From an uncultured Oscillospiraceae bacterium (GTDB taxonomy: Bacteria; Bacillota; Clostridia; Oscillospirales; Oscillospiraceae): DNA of 32,675 nt. Under the pieces are notes generated by a model, which saw nothing but the letters and a program-made list of their open reading frames with translations, was not told where the DNA came from and made no database searches. The stretch lies in contig CANRLF010000023.1 of the NCBI GenBank assembly GCA_947631395.1, positions 1-32,675 on the forward strand. The letters are read 5' to 3'. A program made the translations under genes and the position numbers. Positions 1 through 31,320 of this stretch are shown here, piece by piece. The number at the start of each line of letters is the position of its first letter. Position 1 is the stretch's first letter.

Positions 1-158
1 ATGGGGAGCTGTCCGGGCAAAGCCCGGACTGAGGGGTCTACCTCTTTGGCTCCCCATTTTAATGGGGAGCTGTCCGGGCAAAGCCCGGACTGAGGGGTCT
101 ACCTCTTTGGCTCCCCATTTTAATGGGGAGCTGTCCGGACGAAGTCCGGACTGAGGGG
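1..158. repeat. 61-bp tandem palindromic repeat, about 2.6 copies
   Basis: Units begin ATGGGGAGC at 1, 62 and 123, so the period is 61 bp. Each full unit can fold like a cloverleaf: outer arms ATGGGGAGC and GCTCCCCAT, a first inner hairpin GTCCGGGC-aaa-GCCCGGAC and a second GAGG-ggtcta-CCTC. The third copy changes its first hairpin to GTCCGGAC-gaa-GTCCGGAC on both arms, so pairing is kept, and it is cut off at the infC stop codon. The core GGGGAGCTGTC...GACTGAGGGG is the same one found in the dispersed repeats elsewhere in the window. No spacers separate the units. The array continues to the window edge and may be longer. Confidence 0.9.
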
Positions 159-677
159 TCACTTATTTGGCCTCGGTGACAGGAAAATGCTCATGTTCCG
201 GCCCTCGAGCTTAGGCGCCTTGTCGAGAGTAGCCACCTCGGCACAGCTCTCGGCGTAGCGGTTCAAAAGGTCCTCGCCGATGGAGGTGTGGGCCATCTCC
301 CGTCCCCGGAAGCGCACGGACACCTTCAGCCTGTCGCCGTCCTTTAAAAACTTCGTGCCGTTTTTCAGCTTCACGTTGAAGTCATTATCGGCGATGCCGG
401 GGGACATACGTATCTCCTTGATCTCGATGATGTGCTGGTTGCGGCGGGCCTCCTTCTCGCGCTTTGTCTGCTCGAAGCGGTACTTGCCGTAGTCCATGAT
501 CCGGCAGACAGGCGGCGTGGCGTTGGGGGAGATCTTGACAAGGTCCATCCCCTTGCCCTCAGCGACCTTGAGTGCCTCGGATGCCGGCATGATACCAAGC
601 TGGGCTCCGTCCTCGCCTATAAGGCGCACCTCGGCGTCGGTAATTTCCTCATTGATCTGATGAGTCATGTTAGCGAT
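159..677 (-). CDS. infC: Translation initiation factor IF-3, probable AUC start
   Basis: IF-3 binds the 30S subunit, checks start-codon and initiator tRNA pairing and keeps subunits apart. The protein has the usual family length (about 170 residues): N-terminal domain beginning near INEEI, the basic linker with KREKEARRNQ, and the C-terminal domain with KEIRMSPGI and VRFRGREM. The reading frame is open to 722, but the ribosome site GGAGG lies 9 nt before an ATC codon at 677-675 and 18 nt before the first in-frame ATG at 668. A rare start (AUU, AUC) is a known hallmark of infC, where it permits autoregulation by IF-3. I therefore choose AUC at 677. rpmI and rplT, the usual downstream partners, would lie beyond position 1 and cannot be seen; tandem repeats lie directly downstream. 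Confidence 0.95.
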   Translation of the reverse strand: MANMTHQINEEITDAEVRLIGEDGAQLGIMPASEALKVAEGKGMDLVKISPNATPPVCRIMDYGKYRFEQTKREKEARRNQHIIEIKEIRMSPGIADNDFNVKLKNGTKFLKDGDRLKVSVRFRGREMAHTSIGEDLLNRYAESCAEVATLDKAPKLEGRNMSIFLSPRPNK

Positions 678-816
678 GGTAAAACACCTCCGAAATTGAA
701 AAACGGGCGCCGAAAACGGCACCCGCGCAAGGACCCCATGGCCCCATCATCACGCTGTTGACCGGCTTCGGCGTCCGAGCCGGTGAGAAACGATGCCGTT
801 TCCGCTTTGTTTTTGC
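678..816 (-). promoter_or_regulatory. infC 5' leader with L20/IF-3-type attenuator architecture
   Basis: About 140 nt separate the predicted transcription start (near 816) from the infC start codon. On the minus strand the leader holds a hairpin ACCGGCT...AGCCGGT (759-782) and then a terminator-like hairpin just before the ribosome site. Long leaders controlling infC-rpmI-rplT by L20-dependent attenuation are known in Bacillus and other Firmicutes. That this leader binds L20 is inference from position and layout; I did not match it to a covariance model. Confidence 0.6.
698..726 (-). terminator. Intrinsic terminator/attenuator in the infC leader
   Basis: Read on the minus strand, CGGGTGCCG-tttt-CGGCGCCCG forms a 9-bp stem with one G-U pair, followed at once by a run of T, and ends about 20 nt before the start codon. 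Its place between promoter and gene marks it as an attenuator rather than the end of an upstream gene. Confidence 0.75.
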
Positions 817-822
817 CCGTAA

Positions 823-851
823 AGTATACCAAACGCTCCTTAACTTGTCAA
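823..851 (-). promoter_or_regulatory. Sigma-A promoter for infC
   Basis: On the minus strand TTGACA (851-846) and TATACT (828-823) are separated by exactly 17 nt. Both boxes are close to consensus. Transcription should begin near 816. Confidence 0.88.
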
Positions 852-878
852 GAGGTAATTTTCAATAATTTTATGTAT

Positions 879-896
879 CCCCGGCGTCCGCCGGGG
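879..896 (-). terminator. Hairpin after the 901-1341 gene, possible terminator
   Basis: CCCCGGC-gtcc-GCCGGGG lies 4 nt beyond the stop codon of the minus-strand gene. The tract after it on that strand is AT-rich (ATACATAAAATTATT) rather than a clean T run, so termination strength is uncertain. Confidence 0.5.
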
Positions 897-900
897 AATG

Positions 901-1341
901 TTATTTGAGATACGCCTTGAGCCTTGTTATATTGTCGTGCTCGCAGGTGATGAGCTTCTGGGCCAGGCCCAGGGTCTCGGCGCTGGCGTCCCGGTGGCCG
1001 TTTATGACCTTTGTCATCTGGACAATGCCCATGTTGGAGCCCTTTATCATAAGCTCCGCCAGGTGCCCCGTCTCGTCATTGACCATGGTGTTCATCGCCA
1101 CACCCATCTTCATGCCCATCTTCTTCATCTCGCCCACGCTCTCCGGTGTGCCGCCGAGGCCCACGATGCGGCTGGCCGCCTCCCCGCCGATGGAGTCGTA
1201 CTCGCGCTTTTGGGTCTCCAGGTCGGAGATAAAGGACGAGTCGTCGGCCTTGGGCAGAAGGTCGTCTATTGCCTGGGCCCCGGTCCGGGCGTTGCGGTAT
1301 ACCGAGTTCAAAACGGCTATATCAACATTATTTTCTTCCAT
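901..1341 (-). CDS. Small helical protein, possibly ferritin-like (DUF2383 type)
   Basis: A 146-residue soluble, nearly all-helical protein. I do not recognise a specific function. The sequence has the rhythm of a four-helix bundle, with segments starting near LNSVYRNARTGAQAIDDLL, FISDLETQKREYDSI, MKKMGMKMGVAMNTMVN and GNMGIVQ-like IVQMTKVINGH, and resembles ferritin-like families such as DUF2383; that link is a guess from pattern. No signal peptide or membrane segment is seen. The start is placed at 1341 because AAAGGAGC precedes that ATG by about 7 nt; the open frame to 1455 runs into the promoter and coding region of prmA. It is transcribed divergently from prmA. Confidence 0.75.
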   Translation of the reverse strand: MEENNVDIAVLNSVYRNARTGAQAIDDLLPKADDSSFISDLETQKREYDSIGGEAASRIVGLGGTPESVGEMKKMGMKMGVAMNTMVNDETGHLAELMIKGSNMGIVQMTKVINGHRDASAETLGLAQKLITCEHDNITRLKAYLK

Positions 1342-1357
1342 TTTGCCGCTCCTTTCG

Positions 1358-1386
1358 TTGTAATCGTGATTAGTTTGTGATATGAT
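1358..1386 (+). promoter_or_regulatory. Promoter for prmA operon
   Basis: TTGTAA (1358-1363) and TATGAT (1381-1386) with a 17-nt spacer, in the short divergent region between the minus-strand gene starting at 1341 and prmA. Confidence 0.65.
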
Positions 1387-1419
1387 AGCCTCGATTAAAC
1401 CGACAGTAAAGAGGTAATT

Positions 1420-2361
1420 ATGAACTGGCTTGAGATAACGGTAAACACCTCCCACGAAAACTTAGAGCCCCTGACGGACCGCCTGACGGCGCTTGGCGTT
1501 GAGGGCCTCATCACCGAGGACGAGGCGGATGTCCGGGATTTTCTGGAAAATAACAAAAAATACTGGGATTACGTGGACGAGGACTTCATGGCGAGCATGT
1601 CCGGCGTATGCCGGGTGAAGTTCTACCTTGAGGACTCCCGATCCGGCAGGAGCGAGCTTACGCGCCTGTCCGGCGAGCTTCCCGGGTACGAGCTCATAGA
1701 GCGCCCCGTCCGTGACGAGGACTGGGAGAACAACTGGCGTGAGTACTATAAGCCCATCGAGGTGGGTAAGAGGCTCGTCATTGTCCCCCAGTGGCTCCCG
1801 TCGCCGGACACGGACCGGGTGGCCCTGAGGCTGGACCCGGGGCTCATATTCGGCACCGGTGCCCACGCCACCACACAGCTGTGCCTTGTGGCGACGGAGA
1901 AATACGCCTCCGGCCGCACGGCCCTGGACCTGGGGTGCGGGAGCGGTATCCTTGCCATCGCCGCCCTCCTCTTGGGGGCGGAGCGTGCCGTGGGCGTGGA
2001 CATCGACGACAAGGCCCCTGACGTGGTCATGGAGAACGCCGGCTTCAACGGCATCGGCCCCGACAGGCTGTCGGTATTCGCCGGTGACGTCCTCTCCGAC
2101 CGGGCCCTTTCAAACAAGCTCTCCGGTGAGAAATTCGGCCTTGTGCTTATGAACATCGTCTCTGACGTTATAATCGCCCTGTCGCCCAAGGTCCCGGAAT
2201 TTCTCCGCCCCGACGGGATCTTCATATGCTCCGGCGTGATCGAGGGCCGGCAAAACGAGGTGGAGGCCGCCCTCCGCGCCGCCGGACTTCATATACTCCG
2301 GCGTGAGACGAAGGACGGCTGGTATGCCTTTATATGTGATAAGGAGGAAGAGATATGCTGA
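1420..2361 (+). CDS. prmA: Ribosomal protein L11 methyltransferase
   Basis: Trimethylates ribosomal protein L11 using S-adenosylmethionine. At 313 residues it has the usual length. The N-terminal L11-binding domain opens with WLEITVNTSHENLEPLTDRL; the Rossmann-type methyltransferase domain shows GTGAHATT (about 145-152), LDLGCGSG (169-176), the acidic VGVDID after strand 2 (about 191-196), and the family signature NIVSDVI near 245. The ATG at 1420 follows GAGG by about 6 nt. The next gene overlaps its last 7 bases, so the two are co-transcribed and probably translationally coupled. Confidence 0.96.
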   Translation: MNWLEITVNTSHENLEPLTDRLTALGVEGLITEDEADVRDFLENNKKYWDYVDEDFMASMSGVCRVKFYLEDSRSGRSELTRLSGELPGYELIERPVRDEDWENNWREYYKPIEVGKRLVIVPQWLPSPDTDRVALRLDPGLIFGTGAHATTQLCLVATEKYASGRTALDLGCGSGILAIAALLLGAERAVGVDIDDKAPDVVMENAGFNGIGPDRLSVFAGDVLSDRALSNKLSGEKFGLVLMNIVSDVIIALSPKVPEFLRPDGIFICSGVIEGRQNEVEAALRAAGLHILRRETKDGWYAFICDKEEEIC

Positions 2362-3086
2362 AAACCATCGTCTTAGCCGCTGGTAAGGGCACGAGGATCG
2401 CCCAGGAGGGCATAGACCTCCCCAAGGCCATGCGCACGGTCCTGGGAAAGCCCCTTCTTGGCTACGTCCTTGACGCCCTGCCCACGGGCCCGGAGGACAC
2501 GGTCATCGTGGTGGGTTATAAAAAGGAGTACATAACCGCCGCGTTCCCCAGCTACGCCTTCGCCGAGCAGACAGAGCAGCTTGGCACGGGCCACGCCGTC
2601 ATGTGCGCCCTCCCGGCGCTGGAGGACTATGACGGCGACGTGATGATCTGCTGCGGGGACATGCCGCTGGTGAAAAAAGAGACCTACGCCGCCCTGGCGG
2701 AGGCCCACCGCCTGTCCGGCGCGGCCTGCACCGTCCTCTCCGGCCGCACTGACGAGCCCCTGCCCTTCGGGCGTGTCCTTCGGGACGAAAACGGCGACTT
2801 TGACAGGATCGTCGAGGACCGGGACTGCACCCCGGAGCAAAAAAATATCCGCGAGCTCAACGCCGGTATATACGTTGTCGACTTCAAAAAGCTGTCCTCC
2901 TCCCTCCACGAGCTCCGCACCGACAACGCCCAGGGCGAGTACTACCTCACCGACCTGCCCCTCATCCTCAAAACCCGCGGCGAAAAAGTCTGCGTGTACG
3001 CGCGTGACATGGGCAACGAACTCATCGGCGTCAACACCCCCGCCCAACTAAATCAGGTGGAGGAAATACTAAAGCAACCTCACTAA
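2355..3086 (+). CDS. GlmU-like sugar-phosphate nucleotidyltransferase, N-terminal domain only
   Basis: A 243-residue nucleotidyltransferase of the UDP-N-acetylglucosamine pyrophosphorylase type. Visible motifs are LAAGKGTRI (7-15), the following LPKAM and VLGKPLL, EQLGTGHAV for nucleobase and uridine binding, CGDMPLV for the metal-binding aspartate, and ELNAGIYVVD. Bifunctional GlmU is about 450 residues with a left-handed beta-helix acetyltransferase domain; here that domain is absent and the frame stops after INTPAQLNQVEEIL-type sequence. It may make UDP-GlcNAc from GlcNAc-1-P supplied by another enzyme, or use another sugar phosphate. It overlaps prmA by 7 bases (ATGCTGA) and its ribosome site AAGGAGG lies inside prmA. 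Confidence 0.85.
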   Translation: MLKTIVLAAGKGTRIAQEGIDLPKAMRTVLGKPLLGYVLDALPTGPEDTVIVVGYKKEYITAAFPSYAFAEQTEQLGTGHAVMCALPALEDYDGDVMICCGDMPLVKKETYAALAEAHRLSGAACTVLSGRTDEPLPFGRVLRDENGDFDRIVEDRDCTPEQKNIRELNAGIYVVDFKKLSSSLHELRTDNAQGEYYLTDLPLILKTRGEKVCVYARDMGNELIGVNTPAQLNQVEEILKQPH

Positions 3087-3168
3087 CCCCACCCCTCCCC
3101 CCGGTATTGCCACCCCCCGCCCGCAGGCGCCAAGGCTCCCCTCTCTGAGGGGAGCTTAATTTTTAAAA

Positions 3169-3214
3169 GGTTTGCGGCTTCGCCGCACATTTGATCGCGC
3201 CGCAAGGCGCAACC
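3169..3214 (+). repeat. Double-hairpin repeat, type B
   Basis: Begins GGTTTGCGGC and ends GCGCAACC. It folds as outer GGTT/AACC arms around GCGGC-ttc-GCCGC and GCGCC-gcaa-GGCGC. One of five copies in the window. Confidence 0.85.
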
Positions 3215-3410
3215 TTTAACCCCTTAACCTCCCCTTCGTAAGGGGAGGTGGCCCCGCAGGGCCGGTAGGGTCGAGGCCGAAGTCTTTGCCCTCGCCCCCC
3301 ACCTCCCCCGCGTGGCCGCCTTCCCCGCCCGGGCGTGGGGAGGGGCAGGGGTGAGGTGTGAGACTCGCAACTCCGTAAGCACCCAAACAACCGCACCCGC
3401 CCCCAAAAAA

Positions 3411-3456
3411 GGTTTGCGGCTTCGCCGCACATTTGATCGCGCCGCAAGGCGCAACC
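3411..3456 (+). repeat. Double-hairpin repeat, type B
   Basis: Identical in its 46 bases to the copy at 3169-3214, preceded by a run of six A and by the GCGTGGGGAGGGGCAGGGG block. Confidence 0.85.
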
Positions 3457-3549
3457 TCTAACCCCTTAACCTCCCCGACGTTCGGGGAGGTGGCCCCGCA
3501 GGGCCGGTAGGGTCGAGGCCGAAGTCTTTGCGCACGCCTACACCCTCGA

Positions 3550-3581
3550 CCCCTCAGTCTCGCTACGCTCGACAGCTCCCC
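3550..3581 (-). repeat. Type A palindromic repeat, minus orientation
   Basis: Read on the minus strand: GGGGAGCTGTC, inner stem GTC-GA-GC-gta-GC-GA-GAC with tandem G·A oppositions, then TGAGGGG. Flanked by the hairpin CTCCCCTTacgAAGGGGAG. Confidence 0.85.
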
Positions 3582-3735
3582 TTACGAAGGGGAGCTTAAT
3601 TAAAAGCGGTTTGCGGCCCTCCGGGCCGCTCCTTTTTCGCCTTCCCCGCCCGGGCGGGGAAGGGCAGGGATGAGGTGGGATCCGCGGCGCCAGCCGCAAC
3701 CACATTCCCCCGCACCTTCTCCCCCGCCCCCGAAT

Positions 3736-3770
3736 AGAATGTCTTGGCATCAACCGAGAAAGGACATTCT
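3736..3770. promoter_or_regulatory. Inverted repeat over the feoA translation start region
   Basis: Perfect 8-bp arms AGAATGTC (3736-3743) and GACATTCT (3763-3770) enclose the AAAGGA ribosome site of feoA. It does not look like a canonical Fur box. It could be an operator or an RNA hairpin affecting feoA translation; function is inferred from position only. Confidence 0.45.
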
Positions 3771-3773
3771 TGT

Positions 3774-4001
3774 ATGGCATCAAATTTAGCGGGCCTTGGG
3801 GTGAGCTCCGGGGCGATCGTTGGGGATATAACGGCATTCGGTGAGCTCCGGCGCAGGCTGATGGATCTGGGCTTCACGCCCGGGGCGGCGGTGAGGTGTC
3901 TCTTCGCCGCGCCCTCGGGGGACCCCCGGGCATATATGATCCGCGACTCGGTCATCGCCCTTCGCGGAAGCGACGCGTCCCTCGTGACGCTGGCCGGATA
4001 G
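3774..4001 (+). CDS. feoA: Ferrous iron transport protein A
   Basis: FeoA is a small SH3-like cytosolic protein needed for activity of the FeoB iron channel. The 75-residue product shows the family pattern: early GEIVGDI-like segment (GAIVGDITA), LRRRLMDLGFTPGAAVRCL in the middle and the closing YMIRDSVIALRGSDASLVTL. The frame is open from a TTG at 3744, but the ATG at 3774 is preceded by AAAGGA at a good distance, so I use it. feoB starts 10 bases after the stop, giving the standard feoAB pair; no feoC is visible. Confidence 0.9.
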   Translation: MASNLAGLGVSSGAIVGDITAFGELRRRLMDLGFTPGAAVRCLFAAPSGDPRAYMIRDSVIALRGSDASLVTLAG

Positions 4002-4011
4002 GGGGGCGGAC

Positions 4012-6114: not shown

Positions 6115-6122
6115 AATATTTC

Positions 6123-6151
6123 TTGCGTTTTTTGGAATATGGAATTATAAT
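6123..6151 (+). promoter_or_regulatory. Promoter for the YitT-family gene
   Basis: TTGCGT (6123-6128) and a perfect TATAAT (6146-6151) with a 17-nt spacer, just after the feoB stop. Confidence 0.75.
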
Positions 6152-6190
6152 TGCCTCGCTCACCCGAAAAAACAGGAGAGAGAGGCAATT
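6149..6190 (+). promoter_or_regulatory. Inverted repeat spanning -10 to ribosome site
   Basis: Perfect 9-bp arms AATTGCCTC (6149-6157) and GAGGCAATT (6182-6190). The left arm overlaps the -10 box and start site and the right arm contains the GAGG that lies 8 nt before the ATG. As DNA it could be an operator; as RNA, if the transcript begins upstream enough, it would sequester the ribosome site. Mechanism is inference. Confidence 0.45.
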
Positions 6191-6193
6191 TTT

Positions 6194-7710: not shown

Positions 7711-7732
7711 AAGGAAACGGGCACAAAATAAG

Positions 7733-7826
<94 letters not shown>

Positions 7827-7834
7827 GCCATATG

Positions 7835-21978: not shown

Positions 21979-22551
21979 ATGAAAAAAGACCTTGGAATAA
22001 AGCCCTATCTCTTCCCCATGCCGACATATATGATCGGCACCTACAACGAGGACGACACCGTGGACGTTATGATGATGGCCTGGGGCGGTATCTGCGCCGA
22101 GGACATGGTGGCGCTGAATTTAGAGGCCGACCACAAGACCGTTGCCAACATCCGTGCCCGCGGCGCCTTCACCCTGGCCGTCCCCGGCACCGACACCCTT
22201 GCGGAGTCCGACTTCTTCGGCATCGCCTCCTCCAACAAGATGGCGGATAAATTCCAGCGCACCGGCCTCCACGCCGTAAAGAGCACCCGCGTGGACGCGC
22301 CTGTAATACAGGAGTACCCCCTGACGCTGGAGTGCGTGGTGGAGCGCCTCGAGGACGAACCCTACGGCCTTCGCGTCCTTGGCAGGATCGTAAACGTCCT
22401 CGCCGACGACTCCGTCCTGGACGATAAGGGAAAAGTGGACGCCGGCAAGCTCAACGCCTTCATCTTCGACCAGATGCGCAACGGCTACTACTCCGTCGGC
22501 CCCCAAATCTCCAAAGCCTGGTCCGCCGGCGCCCCCCTAATGAAAAAATAA
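21979..22551 (+). CDS. Flavin reductase-like FMN-binding protein
   Basis: A 190-residue protein of the flavin-reductase-like split-barrel group, which uses FMN or FAD in redox reactions. Typical elements are PMPTYMIGTYNEDDTVDVMMMAWGG (N-terminal strand and flavin contact), FTLAVPGTDTLAESDFFGIASS and the later LTLECVVERLE. Clostridial members of this type are often annotated simply as flavin reductase or flavoredoxin-like. The frame is open from 21883 but AAAGGAGC precedes the ATG at 21979. Single-gene transcript followed by repeats; the substrate is unknown. Confidence 0.88.
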   Translation: MKKDLGIKPYLFPMPTYMIGTYNEDDTVDVMMMAWGGICAEDMVALNLEADHKTVANIRARGAFTLAVPGTDTLAESDFFGIASSNKMADKFQRTGLHAVKSTRVDAPVIQEYPLTLECVVERLEDEPYGLRVLGRIVNVLADDSVLDDKGKVDAGKLNAFIFDQMRNGYYSVGPQISKAWSAGAPLMKK

Positions 22552-22599
22552 TCCCCCCATCCTCCCCCTCCCGCAGGCGAAAAAGGCTCCCCTCTCTGA

Positions 22600-22631
22600 G
22601 GGGAGCTGTCGAGCAACGCGAGACTGAGGGG
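22600..22631 (+). repeat. Type A palindromic repeat
   Basis: GGGGAGCTGTC, inner stem GTC-GA-GC-aac-GC-GA-GAC, TGAGGGG; preceded by hairpin CTCCCCTctctgAGGGGAG and followed by AGTCTACCCC. Confidence 0.85.
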
Positions 22632-22773
22632 AGTCTACCCCATTTAAAATGTTGCGGCCCTCCCGGGCCGCTCCTTTTTCGCCCTCCCCACCCAAGCGTG
22701 GGGAGGGGCAGGGGTGAGGTGTGAGACCAGCAACCCCGTAAGCACCCAAATCCCCGCGCCCACTCCCAAAAAA

Positions 22774-22819
22774 GGTTTGCGGCTCCGCCGCACATTTAAT
22801 CGCGCCGCAAGGCGCAACC
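22774..22819 (+). repeat. Double-hairpin repeat, type B
   Basis: GGTTTGCGGC-tcc-GCCGC, spacer ACATTTAATC, GCGCC-gcaa-GGCGC, AACC. Differs from the 3.2-kb copies only in a loop base and the spacer. Confidence 0.85.
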
Positions 22820-22846
22820 TTGCTCCCCTTAGGCTCCCCTTCGTAA

Positions 22847-22876
22847 GGGGAGCTGTCGGCCGTAGCCGACTGAGGG
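22847..22876 (+). repeat. Type A palindromic repeat
   Basis: GGGGAGCTGTC with inner stem GTCGGC-cgta-GCCGAC, then TGAGGGA. Preceded by CTCCCCTTcgtAAGGGGAG. Confidence 0.85.
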
Positions 22877-22907
22877 ATCGAGGGTATAGGCGTGCGCAAA
22901 TGCTTCA

Positions 22908-23150
22908 GACTCCTCCCCCCACCCCCTCCTCAGAGAGGAGGGGCAATCCGCGCGGCGGGGACGAGAGAATATTGTTGCGGCTAACGCCGCGTAATCCCAC
23001 CTCATCCCTACCCTTCCCCGCCCAAGCGGGGAAGGCTCACGCGAAAAATCCGAACCCCCCGCGCTAATTTAATCCTCACACATCCAATCTTCCCCCCGTA
23101 GGGGCCGATGCCCACATCGGCCCGTCCCCCCGTCCCGCCCGCAGGCGCAA
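22908..23150 (+). repeat. Duplicated block, copy 1
   Basis: Starts GACTCCTCCCCCCACCCC, contains CCCTCCTCagAGAGGAGGGG, GCGGCtaacGCCGC, CCTTCCCCGCccaaGCGGGGAAGG and GGGCCGATGcccaCATCGGCCC. Nearly the same sequence recurs at 23503-23747. Confidence 0.88.
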
Positions 23151-23277
23151 TAAAAATCTGCGGCCCTCCAGGCCGCACCCTTTTCGCCCTCCCCACCCAA
23201 GCGTGGGGAGGGGCAGGGGTGAGGTGTGAGACTCACAACTCCGTAAGCACTCAAACAACCGCACCCACCCCAAAAAA

Positions 23278-23324
23278 GGTTAGCGGCTTCGCCGCACAAT
23301 TTAATCGCGCCGCAAGGCGCAACC
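23278..23324 (+). repeat. Double-hairpin repeat, type B
   Basis: GGTTAGCGGC-ttc-GCCGC, spacer ACAATTTAATC, GCGCC-gcaa-GGCGC, AACC; preceded by CCCCAAAAAA as in the other plus-strand copies. Confidence 0.85.
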
Positions 23325-23350
23325 TTGTTCTCTTAAGCTCCCCTTCGTAA

Positions 23351-23381
23351 GGGGAGCTGTCGGCCGTAGCCGACTGAGGGG
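23351..23381 (+). repeat. Type A palindromic repeat
   Basis: GGGGAGCTGTC with inner stem GTCGGC-cgta-GCCGAC, then TGAGGGG; duplicate of the copy at 22847. Confidence 0.85.
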
Positions 23382-23502
23382 TCGAGGGTGTAGGCGTGTG
23401 CAAAGACTTCGGCCTCGACCCTACCGGCCCTGCGGGGCCACCTCCCCTTACGAAGGGGAGGTTAAAGGAAAGCGCATTATCGGAGGCGTGTACAAATCCT
23501 CG

Positions 23503-23747
23503 GACTCCTCCCCCCACCCCCTCCTCAGAGAGGAGGGGCAATCCGCACGGCGGGGACGAGAGAATATTGTTGCGGCTAACGCCGCATAATCCCACCTCAT
23601 CCCTACCCTTCCCCGCCCAAGCGGGGAAGGCTCACGCAGAAAAATCCGCATCCCTCGCGCGCTAATTTAACCCGCACACATCTAATCTACCCCCGTAGGG
23701 GCCGATGCCCACATCGGCCCGTCCCCCCGTCCCGCCCGCAGGCGCAA
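23503..23747 (+). repeat. Duplicated block, copy 2
   Basis: Matches 22908-23150 almost base for base, with isolated substitutions (for example GCGCGG to GCACGG and GCCGCGTAATC to GCCGCATAATC) and one extra base in CACGCAGAAAAATCC. Confidence 0.88.
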
Positions 23748-23762
23748 GGCTCCCCTCTCTGA

Positions 23763-23794
23763 GGGGAGCTGTCGAGCGCAGCGAGACTGAGGGG
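23763..23794 (+). repeat. Type A palindromic repeat
   Basis: GGGGAGCTGTC, inner stem GTC-GA-GC-gca-GC-GA-GAC, TGAGGGG and AGTCTACCCC; preceded by CTCCCCTctctgAGGGGAG. Confidence 0.85.
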
Positions 23795-23836
23795 AGTCTA
23801 CCCCCATTCTCCCCCCAGATGAGAGACACCCCCCCT

Positions 23837-24745
23837 TCACAACTTAAACGACATCTTCCCCCTCGGGTGCTTTTCGGCCAAAAGCTGGGACTGGTGCGGC
23901 GTGGATACATGTGTGTATATCTGAGTGGTGGATATAGAGCTGTGTCCTAAAAGCGACTGTATGTACCGTATATCCATCCCCGCCTCCAAAAGCGAGGTGG
24001 CGAAGGTGTGGCGGAACATGTGGGGCGTGATGTTGCCTGGGGAGCCGACGCGCTGAAGGTGCTTATGTATTATTCGCCGGACGGACTGGGGCGTCAGCGG
24101 TCGTCCCCGGCGGTTTATTAGGATGGCGTTCTGGGCGGCGATCTCGGCTGAATATCTGAGGGTATAGGTCCCCATGAGCGATATTATCTCGGCGGTGGTG
24201 AGCTCTATGACGCGCTCCTTCCGGCCCTTGCCCCTGACCAGCAGGCGCATGGAGCTCTCGGACAGTGAAAACGTATCCGGCGTCAGGGCGCAGAGCTCCG
24301 ATACACGAAGTCCCGTGCTGAACAGAAGCTCCAGCACCGCGATGTCCACCAGCGTCTCACGCCTGTCTGGGTCGTAGCCGTCATAGGCGCTTTGCAGAAG
24401 GCCCCTCACCGTGTCCTCCGGGATAGTCCTGGGCAGCTGCCTGGGGTACTGTATCTTCAGGTGGAGCTTGTCAAAGGGATTGGCATCAATGGTCTCGTTA
24501 AACTCAAGCTCGCTGAAAAACGCCCGGACGCTGGCCAGCTTTCGCTTCACGGACCTGGGCGCGAAACGCCGGTTCAGGTGCATGACGTACCTGCTCAGCG
24601 TATCCCTCTCCGCCCAACTCTCACCGGCGAAGTCCCCGTATTGCCCAAGGTCGATGCGGTACGCCTTCAGCGTATCCGGCGAAAGCTTTTTGCTGTTTTC
24701 ACAGCAGTCCAGGTACTCATTTATCAGTGTGGATATTTCCCGCAT
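23837..24745 (-). CDS. Tyrosine recombinase, XerC/XerD type
   Basis: A 302-residue site-specific recombinase with the length of XerC/XerD. N-terminal SAM-like domain (1-95, LINEYLDCCENSKKLSPDTLKAYRIDL). The catalytic set is complete: R147 in STGLRVSEL, K173 in RGKGRKER, H242 and R245 in HMFRHTFAT, H268 in LLGHSSISTTQ and Y277 in QIYTHV. ATG at 24745 is chosen for GGAGGG 7 nt before it; the frame is open to 24829. It may be the chromosome dimer resolvase or a related element recombinase. Context is suggestive: repeats lie at its 3' side and an AT-rich island at its 5' side. Confidence 0.93.
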   Translation of the reverse strand: MREISTLINEYLDCCENSKKLSPDTLKAYRIDLGQYGDFAGESWAERDTLSRYVMHLNRRFAPRSVKRKLASVRAFFSELEFNETIDANPFDKLHLKIQYPRQLPRTIPEDTVRGLLQSAYDGYDPDRRETLVDIAVLELLFSTGLRVSELCALTPDTFSLSESSMRLLVRGKGRKERVIELTTAEIISLMGTYTLRYSAEIAAQNAILINRRGRPLTPQSVRRIIHKHLQRVGSPGNITPHMFRHTFATSLLEAGMDIRYIQSLLGHSSISTTQIYTHVSTPHQSQLLAEKHPRGKMSFKL

Positions 24746-24973: not shown

Positions 24974-25026
24974 GTTTGGCATGGGCGGAAATTTTGTAAA
25001 AATTAATTAACCGCCTTAATGGACGG

Positions 25027-25061: not shown

Positions 25062-25084
25062 ATAAATTGTGGAGGTGATGTATC

Positions 25085-25720: not shown

Positions 25721-25752
25721 GAACATTCAATGTGGATTTTGAGAGGTGTAGT

Positions 25753-26179: not shown

Positions 26180-26237
26180 TTTGTCAGGGAGTTGCTAACT
26201 AAGAGATTATATTTCCACACAGGCACAGTGGGCAATT

Positions 26238-26315
26238 ATGCAGGCAGTATCCCTGTTGTCTGTATTCGTTGGGCTGGGTTTTTCAATTTTTGGATTTATT
26301 GAGAGGGAAAAATAA
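26238..26315 (+). CDS. Possible 25-residue membrane peptide or gene remnant
   Basis: From ATG 26238 the frame reads MQAVSLLSVFVGLGFSIFGF then IEREK and stop. It is one hydrophobic helix with a charged end. There is no good ribosome site, so it may be the tail of a decayed gene. Nothing else is visible in 26180-26405. Confidence 0.25.
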   Translation: MQAVSLLSVFVGLGFSIFGFIEREK

Positions 26316-26405
26316 CATCAAGTTTTATGAACTGTGGCAAAATCCTTTAGAAACTAAAAACCGGAATTATAAGAAACAAGCAAATCGGTAGTGGCGGAGG
26401 CATAT

Positions 26406-26582
26406 ATGAAAAATAAACCATTACCATTTATTTTTGGCATTGTCCTGTTGGCTGCTTGTTTGATTATTATGTTTGTAATGATACTCAACAATAAAGAGGT
26501 TCCGGTATTTCTGATTGGATTTACCGGCGCATTGTGCGGAATTTTGATTAATTTGATTAAGGACATTTTTGGTAAACATTAA
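26406..26582 (+). CDS. Small two-helix membrane protein, unknown
   Basis: A 58-residue protein: MKNKPLPF, a first helix (IFGIVLLAACLIIMFVMIL), a short polar turn NNKEVP, a second helix (VFLIGFTGALCGILINLI) and a basic end KDIFGKH. ATG at 26406 follows GGAGG by 5 nt; an earlier in-frame codon at 26391 has no ribosome site. AT-rich like its neighbours and in the same direction. No family recognised. Confidence 0.7.
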   Translation: MKNKPLPFIFGIVLLAACLIIMFVMILNNKEVPVFLIGFTGALCGILINLIKDIFGKH

Positions 26583-26619
26583 AGTTCCAATTCAAGAAAA
26601 TGATATTGGAGGTAAATAA

Positions 26620-26898
26620 ATGGACTGGTGGAACATATCGGTGTTTGGTATAACACCCGTTTTTACTGTTGTTCTAATCTTTGTTGTTAAGCGAAAACTT
26701 CTTTGGACAGCGCCGTTAATATCAACAGTGATTTCCGTGATTATTAGCATAATAGCTGTGCCGGACATTCTAAGCGAAGGCGAATATCTGGCGCATTTTG
26801 GAATTAGTATACTTTTCCATTTTGCAATTGTTGTCCTTTTGACAATTATTGCTTACATTGTTGCACATATTATAAAACGGAAACAGAACAGTCAATAA
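26620..26898 (+). CDS. Small three-helix membrane protein, unknown
   Basis: A 92-residue, strongly hydrophobic protein with helices at about 5-24 (ISVFGITPVFTVVLIFVV), 29-48 (LWTAPLISTVISVIISIIAV) and 59-84 (FGISILFHFAIVVLLTIIAYIVAHI), and a basic C-terminus KRKQNSQ. ATG at 26620 is preceded by GGAGG. It begins 37 bases after the previous small membrane gene and ends before a strong terminator, so the two likely form an operon. Function unknown. Confidence 0.75.
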   Translation: MDWWNISVFGITPVFTVVLIFVVKRKLLWTAPLISTVISVIISIIAVPDILSEGEYLAHFGISILFHFAIVVLLTIIAYIVAHIIKRKQNSQ

Positions 26899-26975
26899 AC
26901 GCCGGAATAATTCAAAGGCTAATTAACCACTAACATTTTGTAAATCCCAATGTTTTGTATTATGATTTATCATTT

Positions 26976-27009
26976 CCCCGTCAGCAATTATGCTGGCGGG
27001 GAATTTTTT
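26976..27009 (+). terminator. Intrinsic terminator at the end of the AT-rich island
   Basis: CCCCGTCAGCA-atta-TGCTGGCGGGG (one G-T pair) followed by AATTTTTT. Confidence 0.85.
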
Positions 27010-27075
27010 ATTCACTCCATTGGATAAATATTCACTCCAGCCGTGACTCAGATACTCCGGGAAGACAAAAGGGAA

Positions 27076-27148
27076 TTGGGAGTAAAATAAAAGGACGGTA
27101 TGGCGATCTCCATACCGTCCTTTTTAAATATGCCGTTTTACTCCCCTT
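27076..27148. terminator. Bidirectional terminator nested in a longer inverted repeat
   Basis: The core AAAAGGACGGTATGG-cgatct-CCATACCGTCCTTTT (27089-27124) is a perfect 15-bp stem with A and T tracts on both sides. Outside it GGGAGTAAAA (about 27078) and TTTTACTCCC (about 27135-27144) pair as well. It terminates hypA on the minus strand and can terminate island transcripts on the plus strand. Confidence 0.88.
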
Positions 27149-27171
27149 CCCGGGCCACCTATCCTCCGCGA

Positions 27172-27516
27172 CTACGTCACGCCGATCTCCTTTATGTTAA
27201 ATTCCCGGCCCTGTATCAGATAGGTGTTGCCGGAGCCGCAGTTGGGGCAGAGCTTGGCGTATCTCACGGTCTCGTAATCCTCGCCGCAGTCCTCGCAGTG
27301 GGTGACGGCGGGGACCTCCTCGATGACAAGCTCCGCCTCGTCCATGATGGGCTCCTTTTTTATCGCCCATTTCCAGCAATCCCGCAAAAGCTCGTGGACC
27401 ACGCCGGTGACCTGGCCGATCTCCAGCGTGACTGACTCTACCCGCCGGGCCCCGTTCTCCTCCGCCACCTTTTTCACGTCGCGGATGACGTAGAACACCA
27501 CACCCAGCTCGTGCAT
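27172..27516 (-). CDS. hypA: Nickel metallochaperone HypA
   Basis: HypA binds nickel and works with HypB in loading nickel enzymes, classically [NiFe]-hydrogenase and in some bacteria urease. The 114-residue protein has the invariant N-terminal MHE nickel motif (H2) and the zinc site C74-x2-C77 and C90-x2-C93 in CEDCGEDYETVRYAKLCPNC. Its ATG overlaps the stop of the upstream flavoprotein gene by one base (TAATG), so the two are translationally coupled. Confidence 0.95.
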   Translation of the reverse strand: MHELGVVFYVIRDVKKVAEENGARRVESVTLEIGQVTGVVHELLRDCWKWAIKKEPIMDEAELVIEEVPAVTHCEDCGEDYETVRYAKLCPNCGSGNTYLIQGREFNIKEIGVT

Positions 27517-30335
27517 TACTTCGTGACCTTCCTGACGGCGATCTTCGCCGCCCGCTTGGCCGCGTATGGCAGGATGTACTTAAACTTCTCCTCGGCCTTC
27601 ACCATGTGTGTGCACTCGGGCCTGTCGCGGTGAAGTGTCACGGCGTCGAAGCCGCACCTGGTGGTGCAAACGCCGCAGCCGATGCACTTGTTGGGGTCCA
27701 CCACCGCCGCGCCGCAGCCCAGGCACCTGGCCGTCTCGATGCGGACCTGCTCCTCAGTCAGGGTGACGGAGGCGTCCCTAAACGGCGTCTTGCTCCTGTC
27801 GGCGCCCTCCCGCTGTCGTGAGGAGTTGTCGTAGCTCTCCACGGTTATATTGTCCTTGTCGAGCTCTATGAACTCCCACCTGTTGCGGCCGATGGTCATG
27901 TTGGCGTTGTGGACATAGCGGTGCAGGGATTCTGAGGCGTAGTGGCCCTGAGCTATGGCGTCGATGGCGAATTTGGGCCCGGTAAGCACGTCGCCGCCCA
28001 CGAAGATGTCGGGCTCGGCGGTCTGGAAGGTCAGGCTGTCCGCCTCGGGGTAGCCACCCCGGCCCAGCTTTACGGCGGTGTCCTTCAGAAGGTCGCCCCA
28101 CTGGACGCACTGGCCTATGGCGAAGATGACCCTGTCGCACTTGACGGTGACCGTCTCGTCCTCGTCGTACTTGGGGGCGAATTTCCCGTTGCCCTCGTAT
28201 ACGTCAACGCACTTTTTGAACACGATGCCCGTGACCCGTCCGTCCTCGGTGAGGATCTCCTTTGGGCCCCATCCGTTGCGGATTGCCACGCCGTCGTCCA
28301 TTGCCTCCTGGGCCTCCTCGTTGGAGCACGGCATCTCCTTTGGCCCCTCCAGGCAGTACATGGCGACGGACTTCGCCCCGGAGCGGGCGCTGACCCTGGC
28401 GGCGTCCACCGCCACGTTCCCGCCGCCCACCACCACGACGGTGCCCTTGAAGGGCTCGTCGCCGCAGTTGGCCTTCCGCAGATAGTCTATTGCCGTGACG
28501 CACCCCTCGGCGCCCTGTCCGGGCACCCCGGGGAGCTTCCCGCCGGAACAGCCGATGGCTATATAGAACGCCTTATAGCCCTGTTCCCGGAGCTCCGGTA
28601 TGGTCACGTCCCGGCCCACCTCCACGCCGGTCTTTATCTCCACGCCGAGCTCACGGATGACGTCGATCTCCGCCTCGACCAGGTCCTTCTCCAGCTTATA
28701 TGAGGGGATGCCGTACCGGAGCATACCGCCGGGGAGGGGATTTTTCTCGAACACCGTGGGCTTATATCCGATAGTCGCCAGATAGTACGCCGCCGACAGT
28801 CCCGCGGGGCCGCCGCCGATTATGGCGATCTTCTCCTCAAAGCGGTCCATGTGGATGCTGGCGGGGATCACCACCTCCGGCACGTACCTCGTCTCGGCCT
28901 TCAGGTCCCGCTCGGCGATAAATCTCTTCACCGCGTCGATGGCCACGGGGTCGTCCACGGTCCCTCGGGTACAGGCGTCCTCGCACCGGCGGTTGCAGAC
29001 GTGCCCGCAGACGGCCGGGAAGGGGTTTTGGCGCTTTATGAGCTCCAGCGCCTCCCGGTACTTGCCCTGGGCGGCTTTTTTCAGGTACCCCTGTACGGCG
29101 ATATGTGCCGGGCAGGCCGTCTTGCAGGGGGCGGTGCCGGTCTGGTGGCAGTTGACCCTGTTGTGGTCCCGGTACTCCGGATCCCACTTGTCCGGACCCC
29201 ACTTCGTCTCGTCAGGGAGCTCCTGGCGGGGATACTCCACCTCTTTCCCCTCCCTGTCGCATAGCTTCTGGCCCAGCTTCAGCGCGCCGGCGGGGCATTT
29301 CTCCACGCACCGCCCGCAGGCGACGCACTTCTCCTTGTCCACGTGGGCCACATACGCGGACCTTGACAGGTTCGGCGTGTTGAAAAGCTGCGAGGTCCGC
29401 AGGGCGTTGCATATCTGTACGTTGCAGTTGCAGATGGCGAAGATCTTGTTCTCGCCGTCTATGTTCGTGACCTGGTGGACAAAGCCGTTGTCCTCGGCCC
29501 GCTTGAGTATCGCCATAGCCTCGTCATATGTGATGTCCCGGCCCTTGCCTGTCTCCCGGCAGTAGTCCGCGAAATCCCCAAGGCCGATGCACCAGCCGTA
29601 CTGGTCGTCGGCACAGCCGTCCCCCAGCACCTTGCGGGATGCCCTGCAGGAGCACTGCCCCACGCCGATGTGCCCCTCGTACTTTTTCAGCCAGTATGAG
29701 ATATGCTCCAGATCCACGGACTCGTTCTCCATGGATATGGCCTTCTCCACCGGTATAACGTGCATACCTATGCCGCCGCCACCGGGTGGCACCATCTGTG
29801 TGATGCCCGCCAGGGGTATGTATGTCATGCGCTCAAAGAAGGACGCCACGTCCGGGTGATCCCGCAGACGCGGGTTGTCGTAGTGCTTCCCGTCGTCGGT
29901 CTTTTCCTCCATGTTCAAAAGCTCCGCTATGCCCGGCACGAATATGGGCAGCATGTACCTCCGGTCCGACTGCGGCGCGGTGCGGCCGTTGTGGTCGTAG
30001 TGGTCGCCGTAGTCGTACTCTAAAAGCCCCACATACGCCATTTCCTCCAGGAGCTTCTCAAATTCCTCCCGCTTCTCCTCCGGGACCTGGCAGAGCTTCA
30101 CGAGCTCCTCCACCGTGTAGTGCTCCCTGAGCTTCATCTTCAGGGCCACGTCGGCCATCTCGTCGGTGATGAGCTCCGCCAGCCCCCAGTATTCCGGGTC
30201 CTCCACCTTCACCCCGCCCAGCTTGTGGGCGGCCACGTCGGTGATCTTTTTCCCGAGCTTTACGATTTTCTCCCGGGCGGGCTTTTCGCCCTTGTGATTT
30301 GCCGGCCAGCTTTCGTATACCTTTGTCATATCCAT
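27516..30335 (-). CDS. Large Fe-S flavoprotein oxidoreductase (GltD/NfnB-like core)
   Basis: A 939-residue cytosolic redox protein. Residues 1-230 are a helical region of unknown role. Then come cysteine clusters C228-x-C-R, C241, C249 and CNCNVQIC (302-309), a 4Fe-4S ferredoxin motif CVACGRCVEKCP (337-348), the GltD-type N-terminal Fe-S domain with CKTACP and CGHVCNRRCEDACTRG (404-458), the FAD motif GGGPAGLSAAY (507-517), the NAD(P) motif GGGNVAVDAAR (637-647), GGDVLTGP (790-797) and a C-terminal 2[4Fe-4S] module (871-895). ATG at 30335 follows GGAGG; the frame is open to 30395. It lies between hypB and hypA, suggesting a link to a nickel redox enzyme. Electron partner unknown. Confidence 0.88.
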   Translation of the reverse strand: MDMTKVYESWPANHKGEKPAREKIVKLGKKITDVAAHKLGGVKVEDPEYWGLAELITDEMADVALKMKLREHYTVEELVKLCQVPEEKREEFEKLLEEMAYVGLLEYDYGDHYDHNGRTAPQSDRRYMLPIFVPGIAELLNMEEKTDDGKHYDNPRLRDHPDVASFFERMTYIPLAGITQMVPPGGGGIGMHVIPVEKAISMENESVDLEHISYWLKKYEGHIGVGQCSCRASRKVLGDGCADDQYGWCIGLGDFADYCRETGKGRDITYDEAMAILKRAEDNGFVHQVTNIDGENKIFAICNCNVQICNALRTSQLFNTPNLSRSAYVAHVDKEKCVACGRCVEKCPAGALKLGQKLCDREGKEVEYPRQELPDETKWGPDKWDPEYRDHNRVNCHQTGTAPCKTACPAHIAVQGYLKKAAQGKYREALELIKRQNPFPAVCGHVCNRRCEDACTRGTVDDPVAIDAVKRFIAERDLKAETRYVPEVVIPASIHMDRFEEKIAIIGGGPAGLSAAYYLATIGYKPTVFEKNPLPGGMLRYGIPSYKLEKDLVEAEIDVIRELGVEIKTGVEVGRDVTIPELREQGYKAFYIAIGCSGGKLPGVPGQGAEGCVTAIDYLRKANCGDEPFKGTVVVVGGGNVAVDAARVSARSGAKSVAMYCLEGPKEMPCSNEEAQEAMDDGVAIRNGWGPKEILTEDGRVTGIVFKKCVDVYEGNGKFAPKYDEDETVTVKCDRVIFAIGQCVQWGDLLKDTAVKLGRGGYPEADSLTFQTAEPDIFVGGDVLTGPKFAIDAIAQGHYASESLHRYVHNANMTIGRNRWEFIELDKDNITVESYDNSSRQREGADRSKTPFRDASVTLTEEQVRIETARCLGCGAAVVDPNKCIGCGVCTTRCGFDAVTLHRDRPECTHMVKAEEKFKYILPYAAKRAAKIAVRKVTK

Positions 30336-30349
30336 GTTCTGTTCCTCCC

Positions 30350-31018
30350 TTATCTCTTCCACATCTCTACCTGCTCCCGGAGCCACCCGACCCACTCGTC
30401 CACGCCCTCTCCGGTCTTGGCGCAGACGGGGATGATCCTCGCCCTTGGATTACGCGCGAGGATGTTCTCCCGGCACCTGTCCATGTCAAAATCGAAATAC
30501 GGCAGTACGTCTGTCTTGTTGATGACCACCGCGTCGCAGGCGGAGAACATCAGCGGGTATTTGAGTGGCTTGTCGTCGCCCTCCGGCACCGAGAGTATCA
30601 TGGCGTTTTTGCTCGCGCCGGTGTCAAACTCCGCGGGACACACCAGGTTCCCCACGTTTTCCAGTATCGCCAGGTCCAGATCGCCCGTGTCCAGCCCCTC
30701 CAGCCCCTGTGCCGTCATGTCCGCGTCCAGATGGCACATGCCGCCGGTGTGGAGCTGTATGGCCCTGGCCCCCGTCCCGGATATGCGCCGGGCGTCCACG
30801 TCGGAGTCGATGTCCGCCTCCATGACGCCAATCTTCATCTCCCCGCCCAGACGCTGTATGGTCCTGGTCAGCAACGTCGTTTTCCCCGCCCCCGGCGAGG
30901 ACATGAGGTTCAGTAAAAAGAGCTTCTTCTCCCGAAGCCTCCGGCGCAGCTCCTCCGCCCGCCGGTCATTGTCGGCAAAAACGCTCCTCTTCACCTCAAT
31001 CACCCGAAATTCCCCCAA
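30350..31018 (-). CDS. hypB: Nickel-incorporation GTPase HypB, TTG start
   Basis: HypB is the GTPase partner of HypA. The 222-residue protein has the P-loop SSPGAGKTT (40-48), the acidic ADIDSDVDA, the metal-site pair C95-H96 in HTGGMCHLDAD, ENVGNLVCPAEFD (120-132) and the NKTD guanine motif in VVINKTDVLPYFDFD. There is no N-terminal histidine-rich nickel-storage stretch. The start is TTG at 31018, six bases after GGAGGG. It heads the hypB-flavoprotein-hypA operon, with 14 bases to the next start. Confidence 0.96.
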   Translation of the reverse strand: MGEFRVIEVKRSVFADNDRRAEELRRRLREKKLFLLNLMSSPGAGKTTLLTRTIQRLGGEMKIGVMEADIDSDVDARRISGTGARAIQLHTGGMCHLDADMTAQGLEGLDTGDLDLAILENVGNLVCPAEFDTGASKNAMILSVPEGDDKPLKYPLMFSACDAVVINKTDVLPYFDFDMDRCRENILARNPRARIIPVCAKTGEGVDEWVGWLREQVEMWKR

Positions 31019-31053
31019 AATTATCCCTCCTCGCGGTATTTATTCGTAATTCA

Positions 31054-31082
31054 AGTATACCCGACCGGCAGAGAAATGTCAA
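31054..31082 (-). promoter_or_regulatory. Sigma-A promoter for hypB operon
   Basis: On the minus strand perfect TTGACA (31082-31077) and TATACT (31059-31054), 17-nt spacer. Confidence 0.87.
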
Positions 31083-31176
31083 ACAATAACATATTTTTTG
31101 CAGGAAAAAATTCAAAAATATTAGTACTCCCCCGTCCACCACCCCCGCCCGCAGGCGAAAAGGCTCCCCTCTCTGA

Positions 31177-31204
31177 GGGGAGCTGTCGCGAAGCGACTGA
31201 GGGG
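31177..31204 (+). repeat. Type A palindromic repeat, short stem
   Basis: GGGGAGCTGTC with inner stem GTCGC-gaa-GCGAC, then TGAGGGG and AGTCTACCCCC. Confidence 0.85.
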
Positions 31205-31221
31205 AGTCTACCCCCAAACAA

Positions 31222-31267
31222 GGTTGCGCCTCCGGCGCAATCAAATTGTGCGGCAAAGCCGCAAACC
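31222..31267 (-). repeat. Double-hairpin repeat, type B, minus orientation
   Basis: On the minus strand GGTTTGCGGC-ttt-GCCGC, spacer ACAATTTGATT, GCGCC-gga-GGCGC, AACC. The second hairpin keeps its stem but changes its loop relative to the other four copies. Confidence 0.85.
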
Positions 31268-31292
31268 TTTTAAATTAGGCTCCCCTTCGTAA

Positions 31293-31320
31293 GGGGAGCT
31301 GTCGCCCGCAGGCGACTGAG
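31293..31320 (+). repeat. Type A palindromic repeat, degenerate 3' end
   Basis: GGGGAGCTGTC with inner stem GTCGCC-cgca-GGCGAC, then TGAGAAG instead of TGAGGGG. Confidence 0.8.

Follow-up and report, generated by a model that had tools for sequence, protein, structure and literature searches.

The stretch of DNA analysed here (the window) comprises 32,675 nucleotides of contig CANRLF010000023.1, from an uncultured Oscillospiraceae bacterium, and carries between its genes a family of dispersed foldback repeats, which we describe together with their association with genes of the DUF559 family. Ten copies of the repeat had been claimed in an earlier note on this DNA, and all ten were found in place. 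The core GGGGAGCTGTC..GACTGAG matched the window 10 times, versus no match in 100 dinucleotide-preserving shuffles. Eight of the ten copies carry the full 3' GACTGAGGGG (GGGG), the exceptions being copy 22847, which ends GACTGAGGGATC, and copy 31293, which ends GACTGAGAAG. In the genome to which the window belongs (2.57 Mb, 62 contigs) an exact match to GGGGAGCTGTCN{3,25}GACTGAGGGG occurs 84 times, whereas the reversed control pattern is absent; a longer pattern that includes the upstream arm gave 92 matches. The copies are intergenic, as had been described: six mechanically delimited open reading frames (ORFs) of at least 90 aa overlap copies, none of them with a Pfam match at an E-value of 0.01, and copy 125-158 adjoins the stop codon of the IF-3 gene (ORF 159-722, minus strand).

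The middle hairpin to which the repeat had been assigned is present, and the full unit is longer, adding an upstream hairpin (GCTCCCC..GGGGAGC) and a downstream GAGGGG arm. Its order is 5' C arm (GCTCCCC), loop, G arm (GGGGAGC), GTC..GAC hairpin and third arm (GAGGGG plus flank). The second loop measures 16-20 nt in the A units of the window (Table 1) and 4 nt in those of short-loop type at 22912-22943 and 23507-23538. The window copies at 3549-3594, 22834-22878 and 23338-23382 are accompanied by inverted partner units, and such pairs place hairpin-looped and short-loop triplex units next to one another. An inverted partner with a different hairpin was also seen beyond the third arm in most copies examined in the related genome G338 and in some of those in genome G370.

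The inner stems vary between copies in the manner that the earlier note had reported. There are 24 distinct inner sequences among the 56 own-genome copies whose 5' arm could be recognised. At inner pair 3 all 52 cases among these copies are standard (shuffled mean 26), and pairs 1 and 2 are standard or a G·A/A·G tandem (23 of 56), with one G·G exception. The analysis was extended to 206 loci elsewhere (103 genome loci and 103 viral-collection loci; one copy per locus, some loci sharing a genome or contig), with 35 of 404 copies left out for want of a recognisable 5' arm. At these loci inner pairs 1-3 are standard in 205 of 206, 200 of 205 and 172 of 177 cases, versus shuffled means of 122.5, 92.2 and 104.2; the search pattern itself dictates the T·T opposition at the hairpin foot. 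The first hairpin appeared in the predicted single-stranded DNA (ssDNA) fold of all three window copies that were folded, two of which beat every shuffle, the third being equalled or bettered by 7 of 200. Selection on a fold rather than on sequence, as originally proposed, is supported by this covariation together with the third-arm correlation described below.

In antiparallel purine-motif DNA triplexes the third strand follows the rule G·G-C, A·A-T and T·A-T. Of 412 tests at the 206 loci, 398 show a third arm that mirrors the G arm by this rule, versus a mean of 205.9 and a maximum of 238 in shuffles, whereas Watson-Crick pairing of the third arm with the 5' arm accounts for 306 and plain identity for 311. 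These tests concern positions 4 and 5, which the search pattern leaves free; positions 1-3 are biased to G. Position 4 (C arm/G arm/third arm) reads T/A/A at 52 and C/G/G at 46 of the 103 genome loci, and C/G/G at 51 and T/A/A at 45 of the 103 viral-collection loci. Position 5 reads C/G/G at 51 and T/A/T at 40 genome loci and at 53 and 45 viral-collection loci, respectively; C/G/G, T/A/T or T/A/A together account for 95 and 100 of 103. Mutual information on the mirror diagonal is 0.81 and 0.86, and 0.70 and 0.97 bit, while between positions 4 and 5 it is 0.01-0.10, and the two positions therefore vary independently. Among the cells at positions 1-3 of the 206 loci, 5 of the 6 with a G-arm A show A or T in the third arm, versus 9 of the 612 with a G-arm G; CTCTCCC/GGGAGAG/GAGAGGG in L264, L217 and L233 exemplifies the matched change. 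A Caulobacter unit of other sequence keeps the rule (G arm GAGAGAGGG, third arm GGGTGAGAG). The rule is the class II motif of Holder et al. 2015 (PMC4666352, available in part).

From this correlation we infer that the unit can fold as a triplex. The earlier suggestion of a fold "as RNA or extruded DNA" narrows, on the same inference, to DNA, because the triple rule obeyed by the third arm, that of the antiparallel purine motif, belongs to a DNA motif. No Rfam family matches the window repeats at the gathering threshold, the sole match in the window being a thiamine pyrophosphate (TPP) riboswitch, and in most copies an A run immediately upstream is missing. Two other origins of the third arm were discarded. 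A target-site duplication as the source of two GAGGGG arms does not suit a 5' arm that pairs with element-internal bases and a third arm that mirrors, rather than repeats, the G arm. A switch between alternative duplexes suits position 4, and at position 5 it places T opposite T. On L218, a repeat-dense viral-collection contig, the third arm GAGAGGG departs from the rule at one position (G arm GGGGGAG in 10 copies, GAGGGAG in 1).

The repeat had been compared with palindromes of gut Clostridia, which proved too narrow a range. The core was found in records titled Clostridia, Caulobacter, Bifidobacterium, Robertkochia, Longimonas, Riflebacteria and Muribaculaceae (at least 118 stretches) and in viral contigs (at least 120 stretches); a few of the pattern matches among those listed (e.g. 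L136 and L140) have no arms and look like chance. The strict pattern occurs in 2 of 299 genomes of the phylum and in 18 of 118 genomes drawn evenly across the class, and genome G370 carries both the T/A/A and the C/G/G type. Among relatives of the window, 20 of 25 genomes (own included) matched the query; in the matches listed synteny ends at the repeat-rich stretch, and no empty site was seen within the genus.

The earlier note knew of no assigned function for such palindromes; it had overlooked that the units bracket DUF559 genes and behave like the ends of a mobile element. The proteins that recur near the repeat across loci are, by reading of their sequences, phage structural proteins and a DUF559-type protein. 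DUF559 (E-value below 1e-10) was detected in 14 of the 18 class genomes with the repeat versus 7 of the 100 without it (Fisher p 5e-10). Repeat matches in reverse orientation lie at a distance of 8-14 nt from DUF559 matches in G396 (twice), G370, G347 and G364 (twice). Many of the loci displayed have a forward unit immediately ahead of the start codon, and their stop codon falls within, or ahead of, a reverse unit. A strict unit was defined by 7-nt exact hairpin arms and a third arm with at most one rule break, within 300 nt. The 91 DUF559 genes collected were reduced to 71 by removal of duplicates and of ORFs with fewer than 86 aa in the domain, and to 64 by removal of 7 with short flanks. 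An upstream forward unit was found at 42 of these 64 genes, a downstream reverse unit at 45 and both at 31, the corresponding values for 213 control windows of the same loci being 7, 9 and 1. The opposite orientations were rarer (20 and 24 of 64), and shuffled DUF559 flanks gave units in 0 of 640.

Both units were present at 9 of 28 genes from class genomes, 5 of 8 from loci found by DNA search and 17 of 28 from repeat-bearing genomes elsewhere. The class genomes had not been selected for the repeat, and 26 of their 28 genes are accompanied by an inward unit, on one side or both. Nor had a plasmid sample (14 of 24 listed matches opened, from 42 records), in which 8 of 14 DUF559 genes have an upstream forward unit, 5 a downstream reverse unit, 4 both and 10 any. 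The plasmid genes with both units belong to Sphingobium, Sphingomonas, Qipengyuania and Pseudanabaena galeata, the DUF559 region of the last sitting inside a much longer gene; a Novosphingobium gene that is bracketed by eye is missed by the strict finder because its first loop is long. The link between DUF559 and the units recurs in Clostridia, Caulobacter, Bifidobacterium and sphingomonads. DUF559 was present in 22 of 30 repeat-bearing genomes versus 7 of 24 for Y1_Tnp (the two sets overlap in 24), and when 13 Y1 transposase loci were searched whole, the strict finder detected units in none. Eight viral-collection contigs (L151, L165, L169, L179, L184, L253, L265 and L268) share a related DUF559-bearing gene cluster, several of them with units; the cluster is phage- or gene-transfer-agent-like by reading of its sequences, which suggests phage-like carriage.

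PF04480 (DUF559) was matched by all 12 of the proteins aligned and the MTES_1575 restriction-endonuclease family by 11 of the 12, the first of them falling below the cut-off. An AlphaFold model (mean predicted local distance difference test score 87.6, predicted template modelling score 0.80) matched the structures 3hrl (Neisseria endonuclease-like; E-value 5e-6), 3r3p (I-Bth0305I; 2e-5) and, more weakly, Vsr (1vsr; 0.04), and the residues D51, E62, D64 and H68 are invariant in the alignment. Judged by this model, DUF559 is a small Vsr-fold endonuclease of the PD-(D/E)XK type; it would be the enzyme of the element, and would be catalytically active there. I-Bth0305I, known here from its PDB title, resembles the DUF559 protein of the element in fold and likely active site; its role is intron homing. 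The same resemblance extends to Caulobacter VsrA, which carries DUF559, is required for the SOS response in a methyltransferase mutant and has been proposed to be a mismatch endonuclease; the available part of that paper treats mismatch repair, not transposition (PMC12907096).

A complete Caulobacter element spans about 520-530 nt and consists of an inward unit, one DUF559 gene and a second inward unit, inverted. Five Caulobacter DUF559 loci share about 530 nt of homology from unit to unit and no other long match in their flanks, and two class families share 524 nt at 90-91% identity, reaching some 60-70 nt past the upstream unit. Three orthologous sites were compared in the related Caulobacter genomes G001, G004 and G005. 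At L425, a DUF559 unit is present in G004, whereas in G005 and G001 the same flanks, at about 90-92% identity, surround one C/G-arm hairpin. At L445, the DUF559 unit is in G005, a different gene-less inverted pair in G004 and other sequence in G001. At L426, the DUF559 unit is in G001, and G004 has a gene-less pair in which the right unit is the same and the left hairpin differs on both sides. In G005 the units and the gene are both missing, and about 0.7 kb of other sequence is present. A search with L425 gave 61-142 matches in five Caulobacter-type genomes and 3 and 7 in two others, most of the matches listed being end units alone.

In Escherichia coli the link probably holds at ycjD as well. 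In a 14-kb stretch of strain MG1655 this is the one DUF559 gene; an apparent degraded unit lies at its stop codon and a full TM_ECO, the triplex motif of Holder et al., 167 nt past it. TM_ECO reads CCCTCNCCC N3-6 GGGNGAGGG N3 GGGNGAGGG, with a second loop of 3 nt, forms a triplex in vitro by circular dichroism and nuclear magnetic resonance, and occurs in 262 proteobacterial genomes, where it has been tied to genome instability (PMC4666352). Given the 23 copies that the same source reports for the chromosome, the chance of one lying so near ycjD is about 0.004. The search of Holder et al. permitted loops of 1-6 nt, and the hairpin-looped unit therefore fell outside it; the parts of their paper available state that no mobility genes and no transposase or integrase remnants were present at TM_ECO sites. 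The ycjD neighbourhood is variable among E. coli genomes: a fabI-ycjD-sapF query was covered to at least 80% in one place by 3362 of 5426, and the one strain without ycjD that was inspected, SCU-124, has a TetR-efflux operon in the fabI-sapF interval (L497) and not a clean empty site.

Table 1. Repeat units and related palindromes of the window
Start	End	Strand	Type	Rule breaks	Remarks
3	36	+	A unit 1		61-nt tandem array; contig end cuts 5' C arm
49	97	+	A unit 2		tandem array; GCTCCCC / ATGGGGAGC / inner hairpin / GAGGGG
110	158	+	A unit 3		tandem array; inner stem altered on both sides (GTCCGGAC/GTCCGGAC); adjoins IF-3 stop
3228	3270	+	B unit	1	
3470	3512	+	B unit	1	CCTCCCC..GGGGAGG-TGGC hairpin-GGTAGGG; inverted partner of A unit 3549-3594
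3549	3594	-	A unit	0	GA/AG tandem inner stem
22587	22632	+	A unit	0	CTCTCTGAG type
22682	22718	+	short-loop triplex-type palindrome	1	CCCTCCCC..GGGGAGGGGCAGGGGTGAG; related by rule, not sequence
22834	22878	+	A unit	1	TTCGTAA type; third arm GAGGGAT
22912	22943	-	Holder-type short-loop triplex unit	0	inverted partner of 22834-22878
23187	23223	+	short-loop triplex-type palindrome		family of 22682-22718
23338	23382	+	A unit	0	
23419	23461	-	B unit	1	inverted partner of 23338-23382
23507	23538	-	Holder-type short-loop triplex unit	0	
23750	23795	+	A unit	0	GA/AG tandem inner stem
31164	31205	+	A unit	0	
31279	31320	+	A unit		broken third arm (GAGAAG); missed by strict finder

Positions 22500-23840 of the window form a packed mosaic of palindromes (A and B units, TTGCGCC..GGCGCAA, CCTTCCCCGCCC.. 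and a GTAG type), bounded by a flavin-reductase gene and a gene of the phage-integrase family. Within it, at 23698-23722, lies the GTAG-headed palindrome GTAGGGGCCGATGCCCACATCGGCC, which is similar to repetitive extragenic palindromes (REPs); a similar sequence, GTAGGGGCGAACCGCGTTCGCCC, was found within the RAYT-like Y1 gene of L277, and ordinary REPs may be a second system here. In the A unit of the own-genome locus L029 (1501-1531 and beyond) foreign sequence interrupts the 5' hairpin at the TTCGTAAG loop, perhaps as a result of the insertion of another element. The TPP riboswitch lies at 7726-7833 on the minus strand (57.1 bits), and an HNH endonuclease gene is located near the end of the window (32231-32602, minus strand).

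We consider it likely that the repeats are the terminal units, and the gene-less descendants, of a mobile element whose enzyme is the DUF559 protein. The sequence basis of this explanation is the anatomy of the unit, the third-arm rule, the bracketing of DUF559 genes and the presence or absence of units at orthologous sites, and at that level both the linkage and the mobility are well supported. In the proposed mechanism the C and G arms would pair in a single strand, or in DNA extruded from a supercoil or the lagging strand; the inner hairpin would reverse the direction of the chain and the third arm would occupy the major groove in antiparallel orientation, forming reverse-Hoogsteen triples (G·G-C, A·A-T, T·A-T). 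DUF559 would recognise the folded unit and cut (nick) there or close by, thereby moving or copying the DNA flanked by two units, with joining elsewhere, perhaps at C/G-arm hairpins beside the 3' ends of genes. Gene-less pairs and solo units would spread in trans. We infer ssDNA as the substrate, and likewise the chemistry of cutting and joining.

The palindromes might instead be an independent family, with DUF559 as a homing-type endonuclease that invades standing inverted pairs and does not move the repeats. The resemblance to I-Bth0305I, the gene-less pair of G004 at the L426 site where G001 has the gene, the single hairpin kept at gene-free sites and the excess of repeats over DUF559 genes (92 to 1 in the own genome) all suit such an invader. 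It is nevertheless unlikely in our judgement: at L426 G005 has neither units nor gene, although other sequence is present there, and homology between elements spans both end units and the gene together. It is slightly more doubtful that the third-arm correlation merely records the ancestry of a few founder families (four arm types) and not selection for triples, which would leave the remainder of the mobile-element explanation standing. Two positions show four common combinations, the tests carry no phylogenetic correction and some families break the rule; yet positions 4 and 5 vary independently, G370 holds both types, with one copy per locus 5 of the 6 changed cells at positions 1-3 show the matching change, and the Caulobacter unit of different sequence keeps the same rule.

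The covarying inner stem, the ssDNA folds of the window copies (two beating all shuffles and one beating 193 of 200) and the T runs that follow some copies on the minus strand would also suit a structured RNA, a bidirectional intrinsic terminator or an mRNA stabiliser that spreads by duplication. Such an origin is very improbable, given that no Rfam family matches at the gathering threshold, that the distribution of the strict pattern is patchy in phylum and class, and that neither the third-arm rule nor the DUF559 bracketing is predicted by it. AAAA lies within 10 nt upstream of the 5' arm at only 13 of the 206 other loci and in 16 of 56 own copies, and the terminator reading was dropped because A runs are too rare. 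The least credible proposal is that of a REP- or REPIN-type element moved by a Y1 (HUH) TnpAREP or an IS200/IS605 transposase, which would share the logic of dispersed palindromes and pairs and for which IS608 offers ends where two base triples, A·A-T and T·A-T, link a guide, a target and a 3' hairpin foot (PMC5934647, available in part). A Y1 or RAYT partner was set aside on the rarity of Y1_Tnp in repeat-bearing genomes and the unit-free Y1 loci; the Y1 genes of the own genome resemble those of IS200/IS605, L031 matching transpos_IS200 and L032 being its close relative, and neither is flanked by the repeat.

Several observations weigh against the mobile-element explanation itself. Under the strict definition an inward unit is missing from one side, or from both, at 33 of the 64 DUF559 genes; the DUF559 gene of the own genome has upstream units and none just downstream; and a clear DUF559 is missing from 4 of the 18 repeat-bearing class genomes (one with a weak match) and from 8 of 30 elsewhere. 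The gene-free sites are not clean, a hairpin being kept at L425 in G005 and G001 and about 0.7 kb being present at L426 in G005, and the target rule and the direction of change are therefore not fixed. The triplex rule is also imperfect: when all 404 copies are counted, 13 of the 22 G-arm-A cells at positions 1-3 are matched (versus 39 of 1169 G cells), the 11 listed copies of L218 break the rule, and A stands over C-G at position 4 in 9 of 56 own copies and over G at position 1 in 9 of 62. With an altered rule, 55 of the 142 DUF559 flank windows still yield units (94 with the true rule), because G·G dominates, and the shuffle controls ignore phylogeny. In vivo, the central guanines at one TM_ECO site were not protected from dimethyl sulfate, and a polymerase stop was seen (PMC4666352). 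Finally, IS608 pairs a similar three-arm geometry with a Y1 enzyme (PMC5934647), and for that reason the fold alone does not name the enzyme.

Among known systems, miniature inverted-repeat transposable elements (MITEs) are short non-autonomous elements with rarer autonomous relatives, and the gene-less units resemble them in this; unlike in MITEs, the ends are foldback triplex units, and a classical DDE transposase was not seen. Intrastrand triplex motifs were reportedly the subject of earlier work by Hoyne and Maher. REPs and REPINs with TnpAREP (RAYT), together termed the "REPtron", share with the units dispersed palindromes, inverted pairs, a bracketed gene and a non-autonomous majority, whereas here the gene is DUF559 (PD-(D/E)XK, Vsr fold) and not a HUH Y1, a triplex third arm is present and Y1 is unassociated. 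REPs start with GTAG, GTGG or close variants (Nunvar 2010, available in part), unlike the A units, which have no such head and read GGAG before the hairpin. TM_ECO has the same C arm, G arm and second G arm with class II triples, and is likewise dispersed, intergenic and present in many genomes (PMC4666352); its second loop is 3 nt, in contrast to the covarying hairpin (16-20 nt in the window), and the available part of that paper states no link to a mobile element, whereas the units here bracket DUF559. IS608 resembles the units in its order of target (C arm), linker, guide, hairpin and 3' foot and in its A·A-T and T·A-T triples (PMC5934647), of which it has two, compared with triples at at least five positions here; in contrast to IS200/IS605 elements, the ends are inverted and DUF559, not TnpA or TnpB, lies between them. 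No description of a DUF559 element with triplex-type ends was found in the open-licence literature of PubMed Central, where the papers that name DUF559 alongside repeats and transposition are, in the parts available, not on such elements.

We lean towards the broader view that the units represent a class of mobile DNA that has gone unrecognised, in which a single DUF559 Vsr-fold nuclease moves DNA bounded by units that form, within one strand, a hairpin-looped purine triplex, in at least Bacillota, Pseudomonadota, Actinomycetota and Bacteroidota, and perhaps Cyanobacteriota and Deinococcota, with TM_ECO and many unexplained GC-rich intergenic palindromes as its non-autonomous offspring. For TM_ECO, described without mobility genes in the available part of the report by Holder et al., a specific enzyme candidate makes the question of its mobility directly testable. 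If this is true, DUF559, a widespread family lacking an assigned function, would acquire a role, natural selection for a DNA triplex would be legible from sequence, and a small nuclease with structured DNA ends would constitute a novel type of mobile element, distinct from the DDE, HUH and recombinase systems.

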